64,000 bases of DNA, taken from NCBI RefSeq assembly GCF_001441165.1, contig NZ_CP013126.1, forward strand, positions 897,551 through 961,550, given 5' to 3'. The translations under genes were made by a program, and so were the position numbers. The notes under the pieces are model-generated. The model made no database searches and was not told where the DNA came from. It saw nothing but the letters and a program-made list of their open reading frames with translations. Of this stretch, positions 51,918 through 58,200 are shown piece by piece. Each line of letters starts with the position of its first letter. Position 1 is the first letter of the stretch. The DNA comes from Acidipropionibacterium acidipropionici. Lineage in GTDB: Bacteria; Actinomycetota; Actinomycetes; Propionibacteriales; Propionibacteriaceae.

Positions 51918-52832
51918 TCAGTCGGCCCCGACCCCTGCGGTCTCCTTCACCTCGACGGCCTCGGACTCCCCGCCGCTACGGCGACGACGGGTCAGGACCA
52001 CGACGACCGCGACGGCCCACACCACCCCGACGCCCAGCTGCACCGGAAGGTTGGCCGAGGACGACACACCCACGGCCTTGAGCAGGTTGCCGATGTTGGT
52101 GAGCACGATGATGCCGCCCACCAGGGTGCCCATCAGTTGTGCCGGGATCTTCGTGACCAGCCAGGCGGCGATCGGCGCGGCGACCAGACCACCGGCCAGC
52201 AGGGTCAGCGCATAGGCGAAGTTGATGCCCGCGGTGCCCAGCCCGAACAGGAAGCCCAGGGACGCCGCCACTGAGACCAGGAACTCTGAGGTGTCCACGG
52301 ACCCGATGACAGTCCTCGGCGCGGTACGCCCGGCGCTCATCAGCGCGGTGGTGGAGACCGGCCCCCAGCCGCCGCCACCGGTGGCGTCGACGAATCCGCC
52401 GATCACACCCAGCGGGGCCAGGAACTTCGCCCCGTGAGGCGACTTGCGCACCGTGGCGACCTTCGGCGGGCGAATCGTGAAGCGGCCCAGGATGAACAGG
52501 CCCAGGACCACCAGGATCCCCGCCATCGCCGGGGCGGCCGCCTCGGTGGACAGTCTGGACAGCACCGTGGCGCCCAGGAAGGAGCCGATCGCCCCGGGCA
52601 CGCCCAGACGCAGCACCAGCCACCAGTCGACATTCTTCAGCCTCCAGTGCGAGATTCCGGAGGCCAGATTGGTACCCACCTCGGCCAGGTGGACCGAAGC
52701 GCTCGCCACGGCCGGCGTCAGCCCTCCGGCAAGCAGCACCGTGGTCGACGTCACGCCGTAGGCCATGCCCAGGGATCCGTCGATCAGTTGTGCCACCAGA
52801 CCGCCGAAGGCGATCAGAATCAGTTTTCTCAT
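51918..52832 (-). CDS. TauE/SafE-family sulfite/sulfonate exporter
   Basis: A 304-residue membrane protein with about eight helices, of the TauE/SafE (TSUP) family that exports sulfite, sulfoacetate or related anions. Typical features are the opening LILIAFGGLVAQLIDGSLGMAYGVTS, the repeat-like GGFVDATGGGGWGPVSTTALM, and SVDTSEFLVSVAASLGFL. GGGGAGAG precedes ATG 52832. It follows cysN by 13 bases in the sulfate assimilation operon, so it may carry sulfate or sulfite, or vent excess sulfite. Its direction (import or export) is not known. Confidence 0.88.
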   Translation of the reverse strand: MRKLILIAFGGLVAQLIDGSLGMAYGVTSTTVLLAGGLTPAVASASVHLAEVGTNLASGISHWRLKNVDWWLVLRLGVPGAIGSFLGATVLSRLSTEAAAPAMAGILVVLGLFILGRFTIRPPKVATVRKSPHGAKFLAPLGVIGGFVDATGGGGWGPVSTTALMSAGRTAPRTVIGSVDTSEFLVSVAASLGFLFGLGTAGINFAYALTLLAGGLVAAPIAAWLVTKIPAQLMGTLVGGIIVLTNIGNLLKAVGVSSSANLPVQLGVGVVWAVAVVVVLTRRRRSGGESEAVEVKETAGVGAD

Positions 52833-52845
52833 TGGTCTCTCCCCG

Positions 52846-54261
52846 TCAGATCTGCCAGTCGATGTCGTTCTCGGGTGCGATGGCCTCGGCCTCGGGCGGG
52901 CGGATCATGCCGGCCGCCAGGGTGAGCCCGGCGGCGGCGTCGACCAGCAGGAAGGCCCCACCGGTGCGTGATTCCGCGTAGTCCTCGGCCAGGATCGGGG
53001 AGGCCAGCCGGATGCTGACCCGCCCGATGTCGTTGAGCTCCAGACAGGACGCCGCCTCCAGCTCGGCGGTGTCCAGATCGAGGCGCCCACGCACCTGGTC
53101 GACGCGCGCCTGGACGGTCCGGGTGGCGTGCTTGAGGAAGACCCGGTCTCCCGGGTGGAGAGGACGATCGCCCAGCCAGGCGACCATGGCGTCGATCTCG
53201 GTGACCGGCTCCGGCGCCCCGTCGACGGCGGCGATGAGATCACCGCGGGTGATGTCGATGTCGTCGGCCAGTCTCAGGGCCACCGACTGCGGCGCGACGG
53301 CCCGCTCCAGGGGCCCGTCGGCGGTGTCGACGCCGACCACCCTGGTGCGACGCCCGCCCGGCAGCACGACCACCTCGTCCCCGGCAGCCACGGTGCCCTG
53401 GCCGATCTGGCCGGCGTATCCGCGGTACTCGGTGAACTCGGTCGAGGCGGCGGCCTGCTGGGGCCGCAGCACGTACTGCACCGGGAGGCGCAGCGGCTTC
53501 TCCTCGACGCCGCGGCCCGGCTCGATGGACTCCAGGATCTCCAGCAGCGACCCGCCGGAGTACCAGGGGGTGCGTGTCGACCTGTCGACGACGTTGTCGC
53601 CGACCAGCGCCGAGACCGGCACGGTGATGAGGTCGGCGATGCCGAGGCGCCGCGCCGTCAGACGGGCGTCGGCGGCGACCCGGTGATACTCCCCGGCGTC
53701 GTAGTCGACGAGATCGAGCTTGTTGATCGCCACGATGACGTGAGGCACCCGCAGCAGCGCGCCGACAGCCAGGTGGCGCCGGGTCTGCTCGAGGATGCCG
53801 TGGCGCACGTCCACCAGCACCACCAGCACATCGGCCGTCGAGGAGCCGGTGACGGTGTTGCGGGTGTACTGCACGTGTCCGGGGCAGTCGGCCAGGATGA
53901 AGGTGCGCCTCGGGGTCGCGAAGTAACGGTAGGCGACGTCGACCGTGATGCCCTGCTCCCGCTCGGCCCGCAGGCCGTCGGTGAGCAGCGCCAGGTCGGT
54001 GCCGGTGAGGCCGCGCTCGTGGCTGACCCGCTCGACGGCGTCGAGCTGGTCGGCGAGGATCGACTTGGAGTCGAAGAGCAACCGCCCCACCAGAGTGGAC
54101 TTGCCGTCGTCGACCGATCCGGCGGTGGCCAGCCGGAGCAGCCCGCCCTCGGCGAGCAGCTCGGATCCGTCGAGTCCCGGCTGATCCGCATCGACGGGAT
54201 CAGGGGCGATGGGATCGGACGGGGCGAGGGCCGGAGCCACTGCTCGGGTGTCGGTGCTCAT
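52846..54261 (-). CDS. cysN: Sulfate adenylyltransferase subunit 1 (GTPase)
   Basis: GTP-driven subunit of ATP sulfurylase, 471 residues of EF-Tu-like architecture. G1 is LRLATAGSVDDGKSTLVGRLLFD, the switch region has EREQGITVDVAYRYFATPRRTFILADCPGHVQYTRN (G3 DCPGH), and G4 is VIVAINKLDLVD. Two C-terminal beta-barrel domains follow. A roughly 40-residue N-terminal extension rich in Asp and Pro precedes G1. The ATG at 54261 overlaps the cysD stop by one base (TGATG). There is no fused CysC kinase domain, consistent with an APS rather than PAPS route. Confidence 0.95.
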   Translation of the reverse strand: MSTDTRAVAPALAPSDPIAPDPVDADQPGLDGSELLAEGGLLRLATAGSVDDGKSTLVGRLLFDSKSILADQLDAVERVSHERGLTGTDLALLTDGLRAEREQGITVDVAYRYFATPRRTFILADCPGHVQYTRNTVTGSSTADVLVVLVDVRHGILEQTRRHLAVGALLRVPHVIVAINKLDLVDYDAGEYHRVAADARLTARRLGIADLITVPVSALVGDNVVDRSTRTPWYSGGSLLEILESIEPGRGVEEKPLRLPVQYVLRPQQAAASTEFTEYRGYAGQIGQGTVAAGDEVVVLPGGRRTRVVGVDTADGPLERAVAPQSVALRLADDIDITRGDLIAAVDGAPEPVTEIDAMVAWLGDRPLHPGDRVFLKHATRTVQARVDQVRGRLDLDTAELEAASCLELNDIGRVSIRLASPILAEDYAESRTGGAFLLVDAAAGLTLAAGMIRPPEAEAIAPENDIDWQI

Positions 54262-55196
54262 CAGAAATAGCCTTCTTTCTTGCGGTCCTCCATGGCGGCC
54301 TCGGAGATGCGGTCGTCGGCCCGGGTTGCGCCTCGCTCGGTGAGGGTGGTGGCGGCCACCTCGAGGACGACGTCGTGGACGGTCTGCGCGTCGGACTCGA
54401 CGGCTCCGGTGCACGACATGTCGCCGACCGTGCGGTAGCGCACATGCCGGGTGACGACCTGCTCGCCGTCGCGCGGCTCGGTGACCGGGCTGACCGGCAG
54501 CCACATGCCGTCGCGCTTGAAGACCTGCCGGTCATGGGCGTAATAGATGCTCGGCAGCTTGATCTGCTCGCGCTCGATGTAGCGCCAGACGTCCAGCTCG
54601 GTCCAGTTGGACAGCGGGAAGACGCGGACGTGCTCGCCGGGGCGGTGCCGGGCGTTGTAGAGGTTCCACAGCTCGGGGCGCTGATTGCGGGGATCCCACT
54701 GGCCGAAGCTGTCCCGCAGGCTCACGATGCGCTCCTTGGCGCGGGCCTTCTCCTCGTCGCGGCGTCCCCCGCCGTAGACGGCGTCGAACCTCCCCTTGGC
54801 GATGCCCTCCAGCAGCGGCTGGGTCTGCAGCGGGTTGCGGGTGCCGTCGGCGCGCTCGGTGAGCCGGCCGTCGTCGATCCAGTCCTGGACCCTCTCGACG
54901 ACCAGCCGCAGGCCGAGGCGCTCGACGGCGGCGTCGCGGAAGTCCAGCACCTCCGGGAAGTTGTGTCCGGTGTCAACGTGCATCACCGGGAAGGGGATGG
55001 GGGCGGGCCAGAAGGCCTTGGCGGCCAGGTGGAGCATCACCACCGAGTCCTTGCCGCCGCTGAACAGCAGGACCGGGCGCTCGCACTCGGCGGTGACCTC
55101 GCGGAAGATGTGGATGGCTTCGGACTCGAGCAGGTCGAGCTGGGTGAGCCGTGGGGCCGCCGTTCGAGTGGTCACAGGGGACTGATCGGTTGTCAC
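54261..55196 (-). CDS. cysD: Sulfate adenylyltransferase subunit 2
   Basis: Catalytic subunit forming APS from sulfate and ATP; about 311 residues, PP-loop type. Motifs: LLFSGGKDSVVMLHLAAKAFWPAPIPFPVMHVDTGHNFPEVLDFRD, VYGGGRRDEEKARAKERI, WTELDVWRYIEREQIKLPSIYYAHDR and the C-terminal RKKEGYF. The start is placed at GTG 55196, overlapping the cysH stop as GTGA; ATG 55211, five codons earlier, is possible. It is transcribed between cysH and cysN in one operon. Confidence 0.95.
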   Translation of the reverse strand: MTTDQSPVTTRTAAPRLTQLDLLESEAIHIFREVTAECERPVLLFSGGKDSVVMLHLAAKAFWPAPIPFPVMHVDTGHNFPEVLDFRDAAVERLGLRLVVERVQDWIDDGRLTERADGTRNPLQTQPLLEGIAKGRFDAVYGGGRRDEEKARAKERIVSLRDSFGQWDPRNQRPELWNLYNARHRPGEHVRVFPLSNWTELDVWRYIEREQIKLPSIYYAHDRQVFKRDGMWLPVSPVTEPRDGEQVVTRHVRYRTVGDMSCTGAVESDAQTVHDVVLEVAATTLTERGATRADDRISEAAMEDRKKEGYF

Positions 55197-55918
55197 AGGT
55201 GGATCCCGCATTCTGTCTTGGCCAGGCCGGCCCAGCGGCCGGCTCTGGGGTCTTCTCCGGGGGCGACGCGCCGGGTGCAGGGGGCGCAGCCGATCGACGG
55301 GTAACCGTCGGTGAGCAGGGGGTTCACCGGCACGCCGTGCTCGGAGGCGAAATTCAGGACGTCGTCGAAGGACCAGGCCGCGATGGGGTTGAGCTTGATC
55401 ATCTGGTGGGTCTCGTCCCACTCAACGAACTGGGCGTTGGCGCGCAGGGCGTTGTCCTCGCGGCGGATCCCGGTGACCCAGGCCTCGTATCCGGCCAGCT
55501 GCTCGGCGAGCGGCTCCACCTTGCGCAGGTGGCAGCACAGCTCGGGGTTACGGGCGAAGAGGTCCTTGCCGTGTGCGGCGTCCTGCTCGGCGACCGTCTG
55601 CTTGGGGGTGACGTCGACGATGGTGACGTCGAAGGCCTGCTTGAGCGCGTCCCGAGTGCCGATGGTCTCGGGGAAGTGGTAGCCGGTGTCGAGGAAGAGG
55701 ACGTCGACGCCGGGGCTGGTCTGGCTCACCAGGGCCGGCAGGATCGTGTCGGCCGCCATGGAGCAGGCCACAGCAAGGTACGGCCCGAACTCCTCGGAGG
55801 CCCATGCGAGCACCTCGGAGGCGTCGGCCTCTGCGAACCTGGCCTGCGCCTGCTCGGCGAGGACCTGCAGTTCGACGGAGTTCCTCGCCGGCCGTAGTTG
55901 TGTGGGGCTGGATTTCAC
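55193..55918 (-). CDS. cysH: Adenylyl-sulfate (APS) reductase, CysH type
   Basis: Reduces APS to sulfite with thioredoxin. The 241 residues contain the P-loop-like region VACSMAADTILPALVS, VLFLDTGYHFPETIGTRDAL, and four cysteines for a [4Fe-4S] cluster: CC in NPELCCHLRKVEPL and two in GYPSIGCAPCTRRV, plus the catalytic Cys in TECGIHL at the C-terminus. This cysteine set marks the APS-reducing subclass. The start is taken as GTG 55918 because GGGGGAC lies six bases before it; a longer GTG start at 55978 would disrupt the leader region. First structural gene after the poly-Cys leader ORF. Confidence 0.93.
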   Translation of the reverse strand: MKSSPTQLRPARNSVELQVLAEQAQARFAEADASEVLAWASEEFGPYLAVACSMAADTILPALVSQTSPGVDVLFLDTGYHFPETIGTRDALKQAFDVTIVDVTPKQTVAEQDAAHGKDLFARNPELCCHLRKVEPLAEQLAGYEAWVTGIRREDNALRANAQFVEWDETHQMIKLNPIAAWSFDDVLNFASEHGVPVNPLLTDGYPSIGCAPCTRRVAPGEDPRAGRWAGLAKTECGIHL

Positions 55919-55987
55919 GGATGTCCCCCTGTGGGTGTGGGGCACGTGGGATCCGGACGTGTACGACTGTCCGCACACCAGGAGTAT

Positions 55988-56010
55988 TTCCGGGCCTCAC
56001 GCGCCCGGAA
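55988..56010 (-). promoter_or_regulatory. Hairpin between the leader peptide and cysH
   Basis: TTCCGGGC and GCCCGGAA (8-bp perfect stem, 7-base loop), starting 18 bases after the leader ORF stop. No U-run follows, so it is either an alternative pairing element or a rho-dependent/translational control structure. Part of the proposed cysteine-responsive attenuator. Confidence 0.5.
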
Positions 56011-56028
56011 GGAATTCGGACGCGGGTA

Positions 56029-56118
56029 TCAACAACACATCCGACACATGCAGGTGTTCAGGCGCGCCAGACCGCCACGGCTCGTGGCCGTGGCGTGCTC
56101 GCCGAACTCAATCTGCAT
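56029..56118 (-). CDS. Poly-cysteine leader peptide of the cys operon
   Basis: A 29-codon ORF from ATG 56118 whose product ends LARLNTCMCRMCC. Four cysteines in the last seven residues lie just before the stop, about 110 bases upstream of cysH. AAGGTG about nine bases before the ATG can serve as ribosome site. Poly-cysteine leader ORFs upstream of sulfur assimilation genes in mycobacteria act as cysteine-responsive attenuators: stalling when Cys-tRNA is scarce opens downstream translation. The same logic fits here. A reading through this frame continues upstream past the ATG, so the start is inferred from the ribosome site. Confidence 0.75.
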   Translation of the reverse strand: MQIEFGEHATATSRGGLARLNTCMCRMCC

Positions 56119-56136
56119 GGCTGACACCTTTGCACG

Positions 56137-56150
56137 GGACACCACTGTCC
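56137..56150. promoter_or_regulatory. Small palindrome upstream of the cys leader
   Basis: GGACA-CCAC-TGTCC, five-base arms around four bases, about 20 bases before the leader ATG. It is a candidate regulator site for the cys operon; no promoter hexamers were assigned with confidence. Confidence 0.3.
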
Positions 56151-56344
56151 GCAAAGAATGTTCCGCCATAAGAGATGTCGTCTTGATTATTGAGACGCTG
56201 GCACTGGGTAGAGAGCCGGAACCCGTATCCGGCCGCACACTCCGGCCCTCACCCAAGCTCAGCAGGCCCGGAGAGGGCCGGAGGACTGGGCGGCGCCCCG
56301 ATCACTCTGGCACCAAAACCCAAGGCCCCGTTCACCCGGGCCAG

Positions 56345-56372
56345 GCGGATCAGAACCAGCGGATCAGAACCA
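56345..56372. repeat. Two tandem 14-bp repeats
   Basis: GCGGATCAGAACCA occurs twice head to tail (56345-56358, 56359-56372), overlapping the last codons of the small membrane protein gene. Confidence 0.85.
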
Positions 56373-56531
56373 GCGGGGCCGGGGGTCTGCGGAGCGGACC
56401 CCCTCGGTGGCGACCGCCCACAGCTCGGCCCGCTGGTGGCTCCGATGGGCGCCGATCCGCCCGCCCACCATGGCGCCGAGGGTGATCGCGGCGAGCGCGG
56501 TGAGGAACCTGTGACGTCTCAGCAGGTCCAT
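56364..56531 (-). CDS. Small single-pass membrane protein
   Basis: A 55-residue protein from ATG 56531, with GGAG five bases upstream. Basic N-terminus MDLLRRHR, one helix FLTALAAITLGAMVGGRIGA, then a short tail with ELWAVATEGVRS. Comparable short membrane proteins with an LWAxAT tail occur in many actinobacteria, with no known function. The reading extends through the IS end if started earlier, so the shorter form is preferred. It is cut off from galE by the IS1380-type element. Confidence 0.55.
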   Translation of the reverse strand: MDLLRRHRFLTALAAITLGAMVGGRIGAHRSHQRAELWAVATEGVRSADPRPRWF

Positions 56532-56558
56532 CGGAACTCCGTCCCTGGCCCGTCGGGG

Positions 56559-58200
56559 CTCAGCCTTGATCCACCGGCGTCGGGGTGATGGGTCGGGCCC
56601 AAAAAGTGGAGATGCCCTCTGCGACCAGGGATGATGGGTGTTGCTAGACAACGAATCAACCCGATCGAGGGGGCATCTCTCAGGTGCAAGTATCCCACGA
56701 GCCCGTCACGGCCCCGACTCCTGTCTTCGATGAGGATCATCTGGTGGCCGCCGGAGGCCTGCCCGCGATCCTGGGCCTGGCCGAACAGGCCGATTTCATC
56801 AGTCTGCTGGCCGGCAGGTTGACGGTCGACTGTCCCAACGCCCCACTCAAGGCCCGCAGTCTGGTCGCGGGGATGCTGGCCGGCGCCGATGACATCGACG
56901 GTACCGGGATCCTCCGGACCGGCGGCACACCGAAGGTCATGGGCGGGGTCCGGGCCCCTTCGACCCTGGGCACCTTCCTGCGCAGCTTCACCCACGGGCA
57001 CGTGCTGCAGTTGGGGGCGGTCAACCGGAAACTACTGGAACATCTGGCCCCGGTGGTGCCGGGCCTGTTCGGCGCCGACCCGCTGATCACAGTCGATCTG
57101 GACGACACCATCCGGGAACTCCACGGCTACCGCAAGCAGGGTGTGGCCTACGGCTACAACAAGGTCAAAGGGCTCAACGCCATCCTGGCCGTCGTCTCCT
57201 CGGACTCCTGCCCGCCAGTGATCACCGGGGCCGGGCTGCGCCGCGGCAACGTGAAATCAGGAGATCATGCCGCCTGGCACGCCACACGGTCCATCACCCT
57301 GGCCCGCACGGTCCGTCCCGGCACCCAGATCCTGGGGCGGGCCGACTCGGCCTTCTGCACCTGCGAGACGATCCACGCCTTCGCCGATCACGGCTGCTGG
57401 TTCAGTGTGACGATCCCCGCCTGGCCGACCGTGACCGCGGCGATCTCCGGTATCGACGAGCAGGCGTGGACACCCATCCGGTACCCGCATGCGGTCATCG
57501 AACCCGAGACCGGGGAACTCATCAGCGATGCGGAGGTTGCCGAGACCCCGTTCACCGCGTTCGTCTCCCACCCGAAAGATGAGCAGGTGTCCTGCCGGCT
57601 GGTGGTCCGCCGGGTCAAGCGCCTGAACCCGGCCGGCCAGGACCCGCTGGTCGAGTCGTACCGGTACCACGCGTTCATCACGAACTCCGATCTGGACACC
57701 GTCGAGGCCGACCGCAGGCATCGGGATCATGCGATCGTCGAGCAGGTCATCGCCGAGCTCAAGGCCGGACCCCTGGCCCACCTGCCCTCGGGCCGGTTCA
57801 CCGCCAACGCCGCCTGGCTGGCCTGCGCGGTGATCGCGTTCAACCTGTCACGCGCCGCGGCCCACGCCGCTGGCATGAGTACAGCGAGAATGCCCACCAT
57901 CACCCGCAGGCTGATCATGATCCCCGCCCGGATCGCACACCGGGCCCGCCGCCGGTACCTCCACATGCCCCGCCGCTGGCCCTGGGCCACCCAGTTCACA
58001 AGACTGTGGACCACCGCCACCGCTGTCGGCCCGCCCCTCGCATTGGCCAGTTGACCATCCGGGCCCCAAAGCCCCTGACCAAGGAACCAGCAGTGGACAC
58101 GCCGGGCAGACCGGCGGGTGACCCATGCCCTCAATCCGAACCACAGGGATCACACAGCCGGACACTGCATACAGAACCGCATCGGTGGATCAAGGCTCAG
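56559..58200 (+). mobile_element. IS1380-family insertion sequence with 5-bp target duplication
   Basis: The element spans 56564-58195, with ends CCTTGATCCACCG and its complement CGGTGGATCAAGG. The 5-bp duplication CTCAG flanks it at 56559-56563 and 58196-58200. It carries one transposase gene. The right duplication contains the complement of the galE stop codon, so galE is left intact. Confidence 0.88.
56684..58054 (+). CDS. IS1380-family DDE transposase
   Basis: A 456-residue transposase. The N-terminal region (about 10-60, LVAAGGLPAILGLAEQADFISLL) and the core with DADDI-like ADDIDGTGIL, LITVDLDDTIRELHGYRKQGVAYGYNKVKGLNAIL and ILGRADSAFCTCETIHAFADHGCWFSVTI are typical of IS1380 (DDE_Tnp_1). 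The last acidic residue lies in DHAIVEQVIAELKAGPLAHLPSGRFTANAAWL, the conserved IS4/IS1380-type end motif. The frame is complete, so it may be active. Confidence 0.93.
   Translation: MQVSHEPVTAPTPVFDEDHLVAAGGLPAILGLAEQADFISLLAGRLTVDCPNAPLKARSLVAGMLAGADDIDGTGILRTGGTPKVMGGVRAPSTLGTFLRSFTHGHVLQLGAVNRKLLEHLAPVVPGLFGADPLITVDLDDTIRELHGYRKQGVAYGYNKVKGLNAILAVVSSDSCPPVITGAGLRRGNVKSGDHAAWHATRSITLARTVRPGTQILGRADSAFCTCETIHAFADHGCWFSVTIPAWPTVTAAISGIDEQAWTPIRYPHAVIEPETGELISDAEVAETPFTAFVSHPKDEQVSCRLVVRRVKRLNPAGQDPLVESYRYHAFITNSDLDTVEADRRHRDHAIVEQVIAELKAGPLAHLPSGRFTANAAWLACAVIAFNLSRAAAHAAGMSTARMPTITRRLIMIPARIAHRARRRYLHMPRRWPWATQFTRLWTTATAVGPPLALAS

Follow-up and report, generated by a model that had tools for sequence, protein, structure and literature searches.

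Ribosomes stalled in the Cys tract of short mycobacterial leader open reading frames (ORFs) were reportedly proposed by Canestrari in 2020 to keep the ribosome site of the gene that follows accessible. ORFs with a run of Cys codons near their stop were described before the cys operon of mycobacteria and Propionibacterium acnes, and before cbs of Bifidobacterium longum, in the available part of a 2005 report (Seliverstov et al., PMC1262725), which gives no conserved terminator hairpin for mycobacteria and suggests Rho. In the accessible passages of later work, cysteine genes of M. smegmatis are cited as being under translation attenuation and Cys upstream ORFs are marked in M. tuberculosis (PMC13236596, 2026), where six cysteine-rich regulatory short ORFs (sORFs) were also analysed (PMC9094748, 2022). 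Finally, the available text of PMC8079986 describes metL of Streptomyces lividans (SLIV_29928), a leaderless ORF before metN that is presumably methionine-dependent.

Within the 64,000-nucleotide stretch of DNA analysed here (the window), the minus strand carries a 29-codon ORF with four Cys among its last seven codons, and cysH starts 110 nt downstream on the same strand (Table 1). An earlier note had proposed this ORF, with no strand given, as a leader about 110 bases ahead of cysH; both the ORF and the distance are confirmed. The gene cysH is the first of an apparent operon with the order cysH-cysD-cysN-tauE, and we consider it likely that the ORF encodes a regulatory leader peptide of this cysHDN(-tauE) operon, with control by ribosome pausing and RNA folding as set out below.

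The ORF resembles the cys-operon leaders of 2005, in so far as the available text describes them (PMC1262725), in being short, carrying Cys codons near the stop, lying upstream of a cys operon and showing no obvious terminator. The P. acnes leader, from the same family, can be likened to it by that description; the tail in the window alternates Cys with Met and Arg. The mechanism had been thought to extend newly to this lineage, but at the family level it is not new, because the available 2005 text (PMC1262725) already named a cys-operon leader in P. acnes. The mycobacterial polycysteine leaderless sORFs (Canestrari et al. 2020) are likewise Cys-tailed leaders before sulfur genes. Unlike them, the window transcript is predicted to be led, and its peptide lacks an HVDxxRV-type core. 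A search of the peptide against the NCBIfam leader models (NF042936 leader_Ms4527A, NF042934 cis_reg_atten) returned no families at E ≤ 10, and no report of the leaders of this genus or of the CMCRMC motif was found in open-licence literature. The cysH leader is an unannotated member of the known cys leaders, with an unusual mixed Cys/Met tail; with a second leader described below, a propionibacterial genus gains a testable leader for sulfate assimilation and another before metQN.

Upstream of the leader ATG, the same frame stays open for 75 codons from a TTG, and each of the three genus members compared has an ATG at the position aligned with 56118. A ribosome site similar to that of the window (GAGGG) precedes the ORF in relative G004, and none is evident in relative G002 in the three-species alignment. 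The contrast drawn earlier between a plausible ribosome site here and the leaderless mycobacterial ORFs therefore applies to the window and G004 but not to G002. A consensus scan found no promoter upstream of the leader. In G004, a −10-like TATAAC lies 46 nt before the leader ATG, which suggests a led rather than a leaderless transcript.

Table 1 Features of the cysH leader locus and of the metQ leader of the same genome (window positions unless a contig is named)
Feature	Position	Strand	Remarks
Leader ORF, 29 codons + TGA, ATG start, MQIEFGEHATATSRGGLARLNTCMCRMCC	56118..56029	minus	same ORF in L002, L003
Shine–Dalgarno-like AAAGG of leader, 8 nt before ATG	56127..56131	minus	inferred
Imperfect inverted repeat CTTTGC-GGACA-GTGG-TGTCC-CGT-GCAAAG over leader ribosome site	56128..56156	minus	folds as stem; weakly conserved
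22-nt block CCTGCATGTGTCGGATGTGTTG, encodes Cys-Met-Cys-Arg-Met-Cys	56033..56054	minus	identical in three genus members
Hairpin A: UCGGAUGUG (Cys/Met codons) with CGCGUCCGA past stop; stop codon in loop	56016..56044	minus	9 pairs kept in 3/3
Hairpin B: 8-bp TTCCGGGC/GCCCGGAA	55988..56010	minus	two pairs changed on both sides, one cell unpaired
Hairpin C: CCCC-N9-GGGG over cysH Shine–Dalgarno	55926..55942	minus	C-G to A-U double change in G002
cysH (phosphoadenylyl-sulfate reductase), GTG start at 55918, Shine–Dalgarno AGGGGG at 55930..55925	55193..55918	minus	NCBIfam NF002537, E 2e-77
ORF holding cysD, true start internal	54261..55421	minus	TIGR02039 matches residues 95-386
ORF holding cysN, true start internal	52846..54504	minus	TIGR02034 matches residues 123-534
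TauE/SafE family protein, last gene of apparent operon	51918..52832	minus	PF01925
metQ leader MATATIHRAHADRRASMMMCRCDAMCCRMPGTC (L219)	G000:C1 ~2171380-2171500	minus	160 nt before metQ

A cysH match is present in three of the five genomes of the genus, and all three have the leader ORF with CMCRMC, so the terminal Cys codons and the ORF are indeed conserved in relatives at the genus level. The peptides of the relatives are MQIEFGEHTAAHGRGAVARLTTCMCRMCC (G004) and MHFEVGVNPAATGLGSAVRQSSCMCRMC (G002). The 22-nt block encoding the tail does not vary, even at synonymous positions. Outside it, the three sequences agree in 53% of aligned columns, and their longest identical run is 11; the chance of a 22-column identical run is about 1e-4 under a simple model of independent columns. 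A degenerate pattern, TGYATGTGYCGNNTNTGY, occurs once in the genome that holds the window, and the pattern TGYATGTGYCGNATGTGYTG matches three of 198 genomes in the family, each belonging to this genus. At its tail the peptide carries a fixed mosaic of Cys and Met, CMCRMC(C), whose two Met codons do not vary among the three sequences. The label ‘poly-Cys’ given earlier fits the terminal Cys codons, but overlooked these two Met codons.

Because the block is invariant in its nucleotides, not in its residues alone, and because the ribosome site is hard to see in G002, the ORF might be a chance frame in a conserved untranslated region, with the block serving as untranslated RNA or as a DNA site. 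This is improbable, since the frame, the ATG and the stop are kept in three species although the middle of the peptide diverges. The distribution of Cys-tailed ORFs outside the genus also speaks against it, as follows. A cysH gene was found in 75 of 147 genomes of the family (Propionibacteriaceae), and upstream regions were examined for 63 of these. Excluding three loci per set that lie too near a contig end, usable loci numbered 60 of 63 for the family and 77 of 80 for an actinobacterial set. ORFs of 14–60 codons ending 15–300 nt before the first gene were counted by the Cys in their last nine residues. With at least three Cys, the 60 family loci yield 10 ORFs on the coding strand and 2 on the opposite strand, with 0.38 expected from dinucleotide shuffles; seven of the 10 come from the 57 loci outside the genus, where at most 0.38 would be expected. 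With at least two Cys, there are 24 on the coding strand (21 of 57 outside the genus), 5 on the opposite strand and 3.8 expected from dinucleotide shuffles, a criterion that lets in chance ORFs (about 4 of the 24 by shuffles) and misses leaders with a single tail Cys. At this threshold, 36 of the 60 family loci have no such ORF. The 77 actinobacterial loci give 8 with at least three Cys (2 opposite, 0.43 expected) and 21 with at least two (9 opposite, 5.2 expected), although the two sets are not independent because loci overlap (L109/L039, L092/L045, L093/L052).

The Cys-tailed ORFs of the family fall into several unrelated sequence types that fill the same slot, for example HVDxxRVxSxxCC-like (L053, L046, L087, L055, L057 and L064), ...AMCCA (L059, L060, L067 and L068), ...GSMCCA(S/C) (L042, L091 and L095) and MIGKFEV...MTCRVC (L039 and L040). 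Judged from these sequences, the slot for a cys-operon leader is common across the family, the leader sequence is not, and the type seen in the window is found only in its genus. The HVD-type leaders (NF042934/NF042936) precede sir-cysH in other genera of the family and share both the slot and the Cys tail with the window ORF, but the window peptide lacks the HVD core. Two HVD-type peptides match NF042936 and NF042934 below the cut-offs; that of L053, for example, matches NF042936 with E 0.001 and 18.6 bits, below the cut-off of 45. A search of the window's own genome with NF042936 returned nothing, an uninformative result because this short model also matches 9 of 14 control genomes.

In 58 of the 63 family loci, cysH follows a NirA/sulfite-reductase-like gene (by similarity to the L053 ORF). 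In contrast, no such gene lies before cysH in the genus of the window, where the sole match per genome is elsewhere (approximate query). The best NCBIfam matches of the gene in this genus are nitrite/sulfite reductases, all below cut-off, and ‘sir’ is a provisional name. A Cys leader before it was considered and rejected: L172 has none, and L173 and L174 each have one unconvincing 77-codon frame with two Cys near its end, 559 and 717 nt from the gene. A signal in rare Cys codons was likewise set aside. TGT makes up 71 of 120 Cys codons in leader tails and 17 of 441 in the sir/cysH genes at those loci, but it also makes up 22 of 35 in the opposite-strand chance ORFs and 835 of 2,040 TGT/TGC words in the whole upstream DNA; the excess therefore reflects non-coding composition and is no special signal.

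At L039, L040, L043 and L044, opposite-strand Cys-tailed ORFs lie upstream of the sulfite-reductase-like gene and point away from sir-cysH, with endings LRMCCPCLKCR, ALCCCLCPVCR and VCCCCLCPVGC. Those of L039, L043 and L044 precede solute-binding-protein genes (PF13531 for L043) that look like sulfate-transport genes.

The cysH leader region folds better than shuffled sequences (z = −2.9), and three small helices are present in the three genus sequences (hairpins A to C). The 8-bp hairpin noticed earlier between the ORF and cysH is real (hairpin B); it is followed by ATACTCC and no T run. In the three sequences, 98.4% of helix cells pair, compared with 22–54% when the helices are slid, and covariation as high as that observed arises in 41 of 500 shuffles, so that the support from only three sequences is slight. 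No terminator-like site occurs in 55850..56450. Rfam searches of 55000..57000 at E ≤ 1 gave no match in the leader and a single family outside it (RF02469), and across the loci searched no Rfam match exceeded the gathering score and none lay in a leader.

In the mechanism that we propose, limitation of cysteine, and perhaps also of methionine, would cause ribosomes to pause on the terminal Cys-Met-Cys-Arg-Met-Cys-Cys codons. The pause would keep the following RNA unfolded, with hairpin A built from those same codons, and cysH expression would rise. When cysteine is plentiful, the ribosome would finish, hairpins A, B and C would form and cysH would be expressed less, either through a closed cysH ribosome site or through untranslated RNA that is open to Rho. 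We infer translation of the ORF, the sensing, the direction of control and this output step. The ORF is best read as encoding a cysteine-sensing leader peptide, because the position of the ORF, the Cys codons at its stop, conservation in the genus and the analogous leaders of the family all fit. The same points lend partial support to the earlier proposal of control by stalling at Cys codons.

Two lines of evidence for the output step were set aside. In simulations, a ribosome stalled on the Cys codons makes the cysH start 0.8–1.1 kcal/mol cheaper to open in the window and G004, whereas in G002 the cost is raised by 1.3–1.8 kcal/mol at the first two Cys codons and lowered by 0.4 kcal/mol at the third. 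Stall-dependent unmasking of the cysH ribosome site is thus too small an effect, and too inconsistent among species, to count. Base pairing between the Cys tract and the cysH start through a 7-nt Watson–Crick complement, present in each species, is at chance level, being matched by 214, 248 and 88 of 2,000 shuffles (window, G004 and G002) and by 5 of 106 coding windows each.

It is somewhat unlikely, but worth weighing, that the same sensing acts through Rho-dependent termination in the leader rather than by shutting the ribosome site of cysH. Such an output would fit the window, where no intrinsic terminator was found, and the footprint folding, which revealed no clear translational switch, and a C-rich, G-poor stretch lies just before the cysH Shine–Dalgarno in all three species. 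However, this stretch spans only ~25 nt, which is short for a rut site, and hairpin C would close the cysH Shine–Dalgarno. The available 2005 text extends its suggestion of Rho to both P. acnes and mycobacteria (PMC1262725), whereas the accessible part of a later report cites mycobacterial leaders as acting on translation (PMC13236596). Sensing by the leader peptide is well motivated; the output may be Shine–Dalgarno closure by hairpin C, Rho or both.

Mixed Cys/Met tails also occur before methionine-transport genes. All five genomes of the genus, including G001 and G003, which have no cysH match, carry a second such leader before metQ. This 33-codon ORF with a good Shine–Dalgarno (AGGAGA), ending for example in MMMCRCDAMCCRMPGTC, is followed by a metQ-like gene (NlpA lipoprotein, PF03180) and then by a metN-like ABC ATPase (ABC_tran, PF00005). 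Its tails in the relatives (L220–L223) are MMMCGCDAMCCRMSGTC (G004), MMMGCDDVMCCRMTGTC (G003), MMMCGGSVDCCRMCGAC (G002) and KMMCCAADACCRMSGTC (G001), and TGTTGCCGAATG is invariant across all five leaders. Three of the genomes allow the start to be placed, and the leader there lies 160, 164 and 227 nt ahead of metQ. NCBIfam gave no relevant match to the metQ leader. A loose pattern for it matches 17 of 198 family genomes, comprising the five of the genus and 12 others, and the 13 matches inspected in those 12 show no clear leader, although at L230 and L233 short frames do end 7–9 codons after the motif. In the regions directly before metN (L199–L203), the Cys runs of L200, L202 and L203 arise from reading the upstream metQ-like gene out of frame, and the leader stands ahead of metQ instead.

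When CMCR[M/L/V]C was sought as DNA in 394 genomes of the class, 22 genomes matched, compared with 10 for the reversed control pattern. These 22 are the window's own genome, three (L178–L180) in which the motif is no short-leader tail, and 18 of the 39 genomes of one other genus, where CMCRMC ends a 28-codon ORF (for example, MTTTSSRTLATEAMMTPGARCMCRMCAF). In all 18, GTGATCAC, the start of an ABC ATPase, follows 166–246 nt after the onset of the stop. The ATPase of L181 is MetN-like (TIGR02314 is the best match, below cut-off) and carries an NIL domain (PF09383). This genus is probably Streptomyces, because the S. lividans metL given in the available text of PMC8079986 is near-identical. This metL resembles the cysH leader in its length (28–29 codons), its ending of CMCR(R)MC plus two residues and its place before a sulfur amino acid gene, but it has a methionine transporter downstream, a different N-terminus, different hairpins and start type, and is reported as leaderless. 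No NCBIfam model matches the 28-codon leader before metN, and the pattern CMCRRMC occurs in none of 296 class genomes.

In L181–L198 (1501 onwards, coding strand), the 28-codon leader shows strong nucleotide conservation along much of its length. Downstream of it is a conserved hairpin, CTCGC-GCCCCGAA-GCGAG, and a GTCCG-N-CGGACA palindrome lies upstream.

The mosaics compared are CMCRMC before cysHDN, MMMC...CCRM before metQN in the same genus and CMCRMC before metN in Streptomyces-like genomes. They raise the prospect, plausible although we lean against it, that the tail monitors methionine as well as cysteine or is a sequence-specific arrest peptide. Fixed Cys/Met mosaics would then be the recurring sulfur-sensor part of several leaders, one starvation signal would open both sulfate assimilation and methionine import, and the same nucleotides would serve as a hairpin arm around the stop codon. 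Mixed sensing is a serious option because the same core stands before metN and a second leader of the genus stands before metQ, and it accords with the invariance of both Met codons in the cysH leader. The available text on S. lividans metL gives an ending of CMCRRMCAF before metN (PMC8079986), and Met directly precedes Cys in the last nine residues of 16 of the 48 Cys-tailed ORFs surveyed. However, many leaders have a hydrophobic residue before Cys, of which Met is one of several, and the ATGTG words could be retained for RNA pairing. The metQ leader does not prove that Met matters in the cysH leader, because ahead of a methionine transporter such codons would be expected anyway, and the shared core could be convergent, because the N-termini and hairpins are unrelated between the lineages. 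Mosaics before two sulfur operons here, and before metN in a distant genus, nonetheless give reason to test the two Met codons in the cysH leader. If the mosaics are functional, the question shifts from counting Cys codons to which codons, in what order, and for which amino acid.

Upstream of the cysH leader, the imperfect inverted repeat over the ribosome site is a possible 5′ hairpin or operator. Together with TGAGAC/GTCTCA-type repeats in the promoter region of the relatives, it would suit a DNA-binding repressor that mainly controls the operon and leaves the leader vestigial. This is decidedly improbable, given that the leader tail is better conserved than the repeats in the three species, and both layers can coexist.

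The TGAGAC/GTCTCA-type repeats lie before cysH in L002 and L003 and partly also before the sulfite-reductase-like gene (L172–L174), and their recurrence may mark a shared sulfur regulator site. In L002, a palindrome, TATGAGACAATGTCTCATA, is placed between −35-like and −10-like boxes. Farther upstream, an IS1380-family transposase gene (56684–58054, plus strand) lies ~490 nt from the candidate leader promoter region. The edge of this element matches RF02469 (Ms_IGR-7 ‘sRNA’) on both strands at 56565–56701, with 43.2 bits against a cut-off of 45, and this Rfam family may represent an insertion-sequence end rather than an sRNA.
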